DNA of 64,000 nucleotides, taken from the NCBI RefSeq assembly GCF_014279895.1, contig NZ_CP047954.1:806001-870000 (forward strand), read 5' to 3'. How positions within the stretch are numbered: the stretch's first letter is position 1; every line of letters starts with the position of its first letter. The notes under the pieces were generated by a model. That model worked only from the letters and a program-made list of their open reading frames with translations, made no database searches and had not been told where the DNA came from. Source of the DNA: Synechococcus sp. M16.1 (GTDB lineage Bacteria; Cyanobacteriota; Cyanobacteriia; PCC-6307; Cyanobiaceae). The position numbers and the translations under genes are program-made. This document shows positions 1 through 1,261 of this stretch, piece by piece.

Positions 1-541
1 TCTTGGCCTGGATGCTGCCGGCGTGGCGGTCGAGAACGGTCGCATCAGGGTCGATGCCAACTCCTGCACCTCGGTACCCCACATCCATGCCGTCGGCGAT
101 GTCACCGATCGGGTCAACCTCACGCCTGTGGCCATTGATGAAGGTCGTGCCTTCGCCGACAGCGTCTTCGGGTCGCGTCAGCGGCAGGTGAACCACGACC
201 TGGTGGCCAGTGCCGTGTTCAGCGATCCAGAGCTGGCGACCGTGGGCCTATCAGAAGAACAGGCCATCGAACGCCATGGCGTGGATGGTGTTGTTGTGCA
301 TCGCGCCCGCTTTCGGTCAATGGCGCGGGCCCTGCCCGCCTCCGGTCCACGTTGTCTGCTCAAGTTGGTGGTGGAGAAGGCTACCGATCGGGTGCTGGGC
401 TGCCACATGGTGGGCGAGCATGCCGCGGAGATCATTCAGATGGCGGCGATTGCCGTGGGGATGGGAGCCACCAAGGCTGATTTCGATCGCACCATGGCGC
501 TGCACCCCTCTGTTTCAGAGGAGTTCGTCACGATGCAGTGA
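1..541 (+). CDS. gor: Glutathione reductase, C-terminal part (5' end outside window)
   Basis: This is the last ~179 residues of a class I pyridine nucleotide-disulfide oxidoreductase, open from base 2. It shows the second FAD-binding motif (HIHAVGDVTDRVNLTP) and the C-terminal dimerisation domain ending in the active-site His-Glu segment HPSVSEEFVTMQ, which is the pattern of glutathione reductase rather than dihydrolipoamide dehydrogenase. The enzyme reduces GSSG with NADPH in the cytoplasm. The redox-active CxxxxC motif lies upstream of the window, so the assignment rests on the C-terminal half. Mercuric reductase-like relatives remain possible but are less likely because of the VSEEFVT ending. 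Confidence 0.85.
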   Translation, partial: LGLDAAGVAVENGRIRVDANSCTSVPHIHAVGDVTDRVNLTPVAIDEGRAFADSVFGSRQRQVNHDLVASAVFSDPELATVGLSEEQAIERHGVDGVVVHRARFRSMARALPASGPRCLLKLVVEKATDRVLGCHMVGEHAAEIIQMAAIAVGMGATKADFDRTMALHPSVSEEFVTMQ

Positions 542-625
542 TCCGGCAATCCTTTCGACAGTATGAAAGGTGCAAGACAATGCATATATGGCGAACTAGA
601 CCACGATTAGATCGATATATATGAC

Positions 626-1261
626 GTGGAATCATTCATGCAGACTCGAGGTCATAAGGCTGATTTTGCTCATTTTTTGATTGAATCAGGGGAGCAGTTG
701 CTCAGCCTTTTTTGGCCTGCAGCTGACGCTCGCCGGGCAGCATCTTTAGAGATTATTGCTCGCACGGCCTATACAGCTGAGGAAAGTGCTTGTCATTACC
801 TTGAGACGATTGGCCTCGATCAGAGTGGCGCTATTCGTAAAACTCTGGAGCTGGCACGTCGGCAGGATAGTAATGAGCAGACGCATGAAGACATTTTTTC
901 TCGTGATCTTGGTGGATTGTCTTTATGGGTAGATCGCTTTGTGGCAAGGCATGTAGCTGTCCTTGTTTATTGGGTATTTGCTTTTACTACCTTGTTGGAT
1001 CACGAGTTGGCCTCTTTGCTTGGAGAAGCTGTTGAGGCCGAAGCTGTCAAAACGTACCGGCGCATGCTTCTGGAGCAGCCAGAAGAATGGTTGCAGCAGC
1101 CCGTAACTCCCATTGCAACAGCCTATTGGAGAAAAGAGGGAAATATGTGGGCTGCCCGGGATGAATGTGAGCCAAAAACTCTTCGAGATGTAATCGAATT
1201 GATTGCCAGAGATGAGTTGGACCATGTGGCGGCTAATAGCCAAAAGGCAATCGCTTTTTAG
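626..1261 (+). CDS. Alternative oxidase / plastid terminal oxidase-like di-iron protein
   Basis: A 211-residue protein of about the size of a bacterial AOX core. Seen directly: LET at 59-61 (Glu60), NEQTH at 83-87 (E84xxH87), a Glu-rich AVEAEAVKTY segment at 135-144, the PIATAYWRK block near 162-170, and LRDVIELIARDELDH at 186-200 (E197xxH200). These are, in order, the four iron-ligand regions of the AOX/PTOX family. Hydrophobic stretches near 105-133 would lie on the membrane face. Known members oxidise quinol and reduce oxygen to water without pumping protons. The sequence is divergent: RADEAHH is replaced by ARDELDH. Its base composition is clearly more AT-rich than its neighbours, suggesting transfer. 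Met5 (position 638) is an alternative start. Confidence 0.72.
   Translation: MESFMQTRGHKADFAHFLIESGEQLLSLFWPAADARRAASLEIIARTAYTAEESACHYLETIGLDQSGAIRKTLELARRQDSNEQTHEDIFSRDLGGLSLWVDRFVARHVAVLVYWVFAFTTLLDHELASLLGEAVEAEAVKTYRRMLLEQPEEWLQQPVTPIATAYWRKEGNMWAARDECEPKTLRDVIELIARDELDHVAANSQKAIAF

Follow-up and report, generated by a model that had tools for sequence, protein, structure and literature searches.

The window analysed here is a 64,000-nucleotide stretch of the genome of Synechococcus sp. M16.1. Near its left end, a forward-strand gene of 207 codons (638..1261) is predicted to encode a di-iron quinol oxidase of the PTOX/AOX family, an assignment drawn from its PF01786 match, the start column shared by its relatives, a structural model and a match to trypanosome alternative oxidase (TAO). 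The variable site that it occupies is bordered on the left by gor, of which the window holds the C-terminal part of glutathione reductase (2..541, forward strand), and on the right by a convergent calcium/sodium antiporter gene (TIGR00367; 1270..2370, reverse strand). An AT-rich, unstranded spacer of 96 bp (542..637; 41.7% GC) separates gor from PTOX. The initial annotation had recognised the neighbour as glutathione reductase, and indeed the best NCBIfam match of gor, a 468-aa frame in the genome, was glutathione-disulfide reductase. It had also taken the PTOX frame to run from GTG 626 to 1261. The open frame is real, but GTG 626 is probably not its start; ATG 638 is the most likely one, because 16 of the 17 family members begin with Met at that column and share the length of 207 aa, the seventeenth (L012) having TTG there. 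The gene is AT-rich relative to its surroundings, as had been remarked, with 48.4% GC and a GC3 of 41.8, whereas the window has 60.5% GC and the four neighbours measured have a GC3 of 69.6-76.4. No sigma-70-like promoter was found in positions 400-1500, the gor/PTOX spacer included, and the one terminator-like site in the same interval was no better than chance. The source genome (one contig, 2,112,236 bases) contains no second AOX.

The protein had been described as AOX/PTOX-like, a membership that was confirmed by profile search. It matched PF01786 with an E-value of 7.5e-12 and 45.8 bits, twice the cut-off of 22.7 and well beyond chance, and all 36 members of alignment A3 scored above the cut-off. 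The family phrog_4235 (plastoquinol terminal oxidase) was matched at 2.5e-14, and an NCBIfam search returned no family. PDB searches with the single sequence and with a narrow profile gave no match; only a broad profile of 20 relatives (A2) reached TAO, at 4e-6 to 7e-6. The presumed remoteness from typical PTOX was real, identity to cyanobacterial PTOX being 27-36%. To this can be added an AlphaFold2 model, built on a 36-row alignment, with a pLDDT of 93.6 and a pTM of 0.89. In it, the protein forms a four-helix bundle of the AOX type that superposes on TAO (3w54_A) with a VIA Z of 20.5 and an rmsd of 2.3 A over 192 of 207 residues. In a Foldseek search against the PDB, the best 14 rows were all TAO (the first 13 at E<=0.001), and in a viral structure library the best match was the protein of Synechococcus phage S-N03 (TM 0.96). 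The next-best fold was a ferritin-like chain with a Z of 13.7 against 20.5 for TAO, which sets the protein apart from ferritin-like di-iron proteins such as bacterioferritin and Dps.

The iron site required some revision. Five of the proposed ligands stood (E84, H87, E137, E197 and H200, which become E80, H83, E133, E193 and H196 when counted from the ATG), whereas E60 of the LET block (now E56) was wrongly chosen and E139 (now E135) is no ligand. The first iron ligand is instead E38 of LEIIA (749..751, forward strand, as for all residues below), which aligned with TAO E123. E56 (803..805) is a conserved non-ligand position, invariant in 20/20 cyanobacterial rows, and TAO has no Glu at its column, hence its exclusion. 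In the sequence-based profile alignment, the second and third ligands, E80 and H83 of NEQTH (875..886), corresponded to TAO E162 and H165, although one MAFFT alignment displaced this block by one column. The fourth ligand, E133 (1034..1036), aligned with TAO E213, and the motif D192-E193-x-x-H196 (1211..1225) brought together the second-shell Asp (TAO D265) and the fifth and sixth ligands (TAO E266 and H269). Further equivalents of TAO residues were R33 (734..736; R118), T139-Y140 (1052..1057; T219/Y220) and Y163-W164 (1124..1129; Y246/W247). E135 aligned with TAO E215, which we take not to be among the six AOX ligands. All six ligands were identical in the 17 family members, of which four are viral, so that the expectation of conservation in homologues held, and the same was true of nine other residues (R33, H53, N79, E135, T139, Y140, Y163, W164 and D192), fifteen in all.

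We then considered where this type of PTOX occurs. It was present in 12 of the 34 genomes of the window's own genus and in one of the 31 genomes from a second Synechococcus genus (that of G089), and a close relative (97%) came from Synechococcus sp. MU1642 (L024). All 13 genomes with a full-length copy had it intact. In the three of six pairs with unsaturated dS, dN/dS was 0.036-0.074, about 0.05 between hosts, and the gene is under purifying selection. Plasmid records yielded four distant matches. We also observed a mitochondrial or proteobacterial-looking AOX (L030, G019:C110:1741-2331; E 6.5e-71), possibly a contamination, on a short contig from a genome of 63% completeness. In G015, a decayed second PTOX copy with several stops (L107 5875-6360; G015:C1:2208874-2209451) was flanked by a Band-7 protein gene and a DUF3598-like gene, the same flanks as those of the intact G006 copy (L109), while the intact G015 copy lies elsewhere, beside a phosphoribosyltransferase gene.

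PTOX is common to hosts and two unrelated cyanophage lineages. Of 97 phage records matched, only two, both S-N03, exceeded 60% identity; among the remaining 95, the three that were read had proteins of 166-168 aa. In IMG/VR, three contigs carried one identical protein with 89% identity to that of the window, and two more were at 65%. The 89% contigs derive from an S-EIV1-like phage, with a terminase 80% identical to that of S-EIV1 and ten collinear ORFs at 37-83%; on one of them (L112/L052; IMG/VR 3300020417_002332) the gene immediately upstream of the terminase gene is PTOX, and no PTOX was seen upstream of the terminase in the stretch of S-EIV1 itself that was read. That these contigs (L052-L054) might be mis-binned host DNA was rejected on account of the terminase, a structural protein and the ten ORFs collinear with S-EIV1. 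The S-EIV1-like PTOX fell inside the window's host group on the tree (7-row set, 99/99; inner forks weak), and dN/dS between it and the window gene was 0.074. Base composition, the sole basis for a direction of transfer, suggests that the gene passed from phage to host. Genes for NADPH-dependent FMN reductases were seen as well (L084 6703-7323; L110 8464-9240; G011:C5:40978-41739). Such a gene adjoins PTOX in S-N03 and lies within 3 kb of it in G015 and, with a stop in its frame, in G011; in G020 it is on another contig, and the ARTO strain G016 also has one. The S-N03 and G015 reductases shared 73% identity. In all, it occurs in only four of the genus's 34 genomes, too few to claim a PTOX-FMN reductase cassette.

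The comparison of flanks between genomes revealed a second oxidase at the same site. PTOX lies between gor and the Na/Ca antiporter gene in six genomes (G000, G001, G010, G013, G020 and G032), and in 14 of the 15 ARTO-bearing genomes of the genus an ARTO-type CtaD (94-100% identity) was found there; in the fifteenth, G031, CtaD lies beside the antiporter gene and gor is missing from that contig. In four genomes (G006, G014, G015 and G028), gor and the antiporter gene were separated by 88-295 bp with no PTOX in between. A unit of PTOX and gor, which we had entertained, was weakened by these four and by the six of 12 PTOX genomes of the genus that have PTOX elsewhere. As read in G003, G009 and G033, the block held DUF2231 genes, genes annotated in part as CtaC, CtaD or CtaE, and a GMC oxidoreductase gene. 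The first two genes of the type-1 ARTO of Anabaena presumably encode DUF2231 proteins. In G003, ARTO subunit II (CtaC) as read had no CuA cysteines, which, by the criterion given in the accessible part of PMC6616624, points to quinol and not cytochrome c as the electron donor. The type-1 ARTO of Anabaena is described there with the same order, two genes followed by coxB3A3C3. The G003 block also carries a thiamine-pyrophosphate decarboxylase-like gene (L165 2403-4295) that the ORF lists for G009 and G033 do not contain. No report of a locus shared by PTOX and ARTO was found in the accessible sections of PMC6616624.

Among the 65 genomes of the two genera, none had both oxidases: 13 had PTOX, 40 had ARTO and 12 had neither. 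The own genus contributed 12 with PTOX, 15 with ARTO and 7 with neither (34 genomes, none with both), and the genus of G089 contributed 1, 25 and 5, respectively (31 genomes, again none with both). Restricting the count to 43 good genomes gave 8 with PTOX, 33 with ARTO, none with both and 2 with neither (Fisher 3.1e-7, uncorrected for relatedness). Incomplete genomes account for five of the 13 with PTOX, and three of these (G011, G014 and G028) yielded neither type of CtaD, so their lack of ARTO says little. On a tree of the antiporter from 24 genomes (24 of 28 antiporter loci; G007, G014, G021 and G024 were left out, a motif not being found), PTOX needed 3 changes and ARTO 5, and the PTOX genome G013 nested with three ARTO genomes (100/100). 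Exclusion was not significant on this tree, since three independent pairs cannot reach 0.05. A strict exclusion was rejected in the wider family, where 7 of 81 genomes with the short PTOX of Prochlorococcus-like genera (g40 and g79) also had an ARTO-type CtaD (G222, G272, G308, G313, G344, G387 and G408, the PTOX of G308 being broken). These seven may be the low-iron Prochlorococcus of PMC10119275, whose accessible text reports ARTO in 85% of Synechococcus reference genomes as well as in low-iron Prochlorococcus and does not mention 'ptox'. We infer that, in its own lineage, PTOX would take the place of ARTO as a valve from plastoquinol to oxygen. A broader proposal, which we put forward tentatively and at somewhat less than even chance, is that marine Synechococcus lineages carry either the di-iron PTOX, a single gene, or the unrelated heme-copper ARTO, encoded by several, as alternative cargoes, often at the same gor-antiporter site, and that PTOX is resupplied by cyanophages with the same gene (S-N03 and S-EIV1-like).

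Judged from sequence and model, the gene very probably encodes a functional AOX-family di-iron quinol oxidase, a PTOX that would act as an overflow valve from plastoquinol to oxygen before photosystem I. Such a monotopic membrane enzyme would take two electrons from plastoquinol at a time, reduce O2 to water and thereby relieve the plastoquinone pool upstream of photosystem I. Plastoquinol is the presumed substrate and the thylakoid the presumed location; by analogy with the family and with work on marine Synechococcus (PMC3037559, PMC2984593 and PMC3441193, in their accessible parts), a role in iron and light stress would be expected. The presence of ARTO at the same locus in relatives supports quinol oxidation as the common function.

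It is unlikely, by comparison, that the AOX fold here serves a changed substrate, another quinol or a lipid-like molecule, or a soluble enzyme, with no plastoquinol valve. Helix 1, predicted at residues 6-25, is weakly hydrophobic (averaging 0.32 in hydropathy over 17 rows, where 20 rows of canonical cyanobacterial PTOX average 2.32) and has a polar TAEES where canonical PTOX is hydrophobic, so that membrane binding or substrate might differ; the very long branch of the family would fit this as well. Helix 4 (residues 97-120), however, is as hydrophobic as in PTOX (1.30 versus 1.15), the six ligands and the equivalents of TAO R118, T219, Y220, Y246 and D265 are unchanged in 17/17, and in relatives the site of this gene is held by a CuA-less heme-copper oxidase. 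All three points favour the plastoquinol valve. Still less probable is that the gene came from a phage and persists chiefly as a remnant or to serve infection, with no role in the host. Its GC3 (42 against 70-76 in the neighbours), the 89% identical protein of the S-EIV1-like contigs and the decayed copy in G015 would agree with such an origin, but a remnant is hard to reconcile with 13 intact copies out of 13 full-length ones, a dN/dS of about 0.05 between hosts and the same position in six genomes. As for a mere open frame with di-iron-like motifs, only the roughly 30% identity to typical PTOX and the LET block that proved not to be a true ligand spoke for chance; with the PF01786 match, the confident model, the TAO fold match, the low dN/dS and site residues identical in 17/17, this reading is already refuted and has practically no probability left. 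A functional PTOX stays the favoured interpretation.

In marine Synechococcus, the disposal of electrons onto oxygen when iron is scarce or light is strong has been ascribed to PTOX. Should PTOX and ARTO replace one another at a single locus, the genotype of a population would reveal its valve, and comparing paired strains that have one or the other would be a direct test of what each valve contributes. That hosts and phages of two kinds share the gene with little change suggests that phages benefit from control over this valve. The occurrence of PTOX in marine Synechococcus is already known, and what we describe is a divergent but strongly conserved form of it; the locus-level PTOX/ARTO pattern is less expected and deserves a test.

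How, then, does this PTOX compare with known oxidases? Its presence in marine Synechococcus has been published for 'BL101', WH8102 and CC9902, with none in CC9605 (accessible part of PMC3037559); accessions for WH8102, CC9902 and BL107 are given in PMC3404998, and the excerpt available from PMC3441193 states that a few strains have it. Canonical cyanobacterial and plastid PTOX share the ligands and the LExxAR, NExxH and ExxH motifs with the window protein but have a strongly hydrophobic helix 1 in place of a weakly hydrophobic one and, in three rows, a His at the column of E135. Their loop before the last helix is also longer: in the window protein it runs for 29 residues from Y163 to D192, 9 shorter than the 38 found in 17 of the 20 cyanobacterial PTOX rows measured and 10 longer than the 19 of TAO. 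We take this long loop to be the region of the plant exon-8 sequence. TAO has the common fold, the ligands and the equivalents of R118, T219, Y220, Y246, W247, D265 and E215; it differs in being mitochondrial and in its 18% identity. On the tree, the 17 full-length rows grouped together (100/100) on a very long branch, and 14 rows of short PTOX formed their own clade (100/100); the window lineage sat within a 36-row set (97/90) together with five cyanobacterial PTOX and the short type, the forks among them being open. Short PTOX, known from the Prochlorococcus-like genera g40 and g79 and from T4-like cyanophages (phrog_4235), belongs to the same Pfam family, with readable ligand motifs and about 30% identity, but measures 166-172 aa in the rows read against 207 and misses the Y163-W164 stretch before the last helix. 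The window PTOX is, as far as the sequences tell, a lineage separate from the short PTOX of Prochlorococcus-like genomes and of three T4-like cyanophages. Within this lineage, the PTOX of G006 is a 69% relative, whereas the window belongs to the other branch, that of the gor-antiporter site (86-97% among G000, G001, G010, G013, G020 and G032). The PTOX of the myovirus S-N03 (plastoquinol terminal oxidase, gp130; named ptoX in the accessible part of PMC7472177) shares the length of 207 aa, 65% identity and all site residues with that of the window, and differs in being phage-borne, with a gene for an NADPH-dependent FMN reductase located 70 bp downstream.
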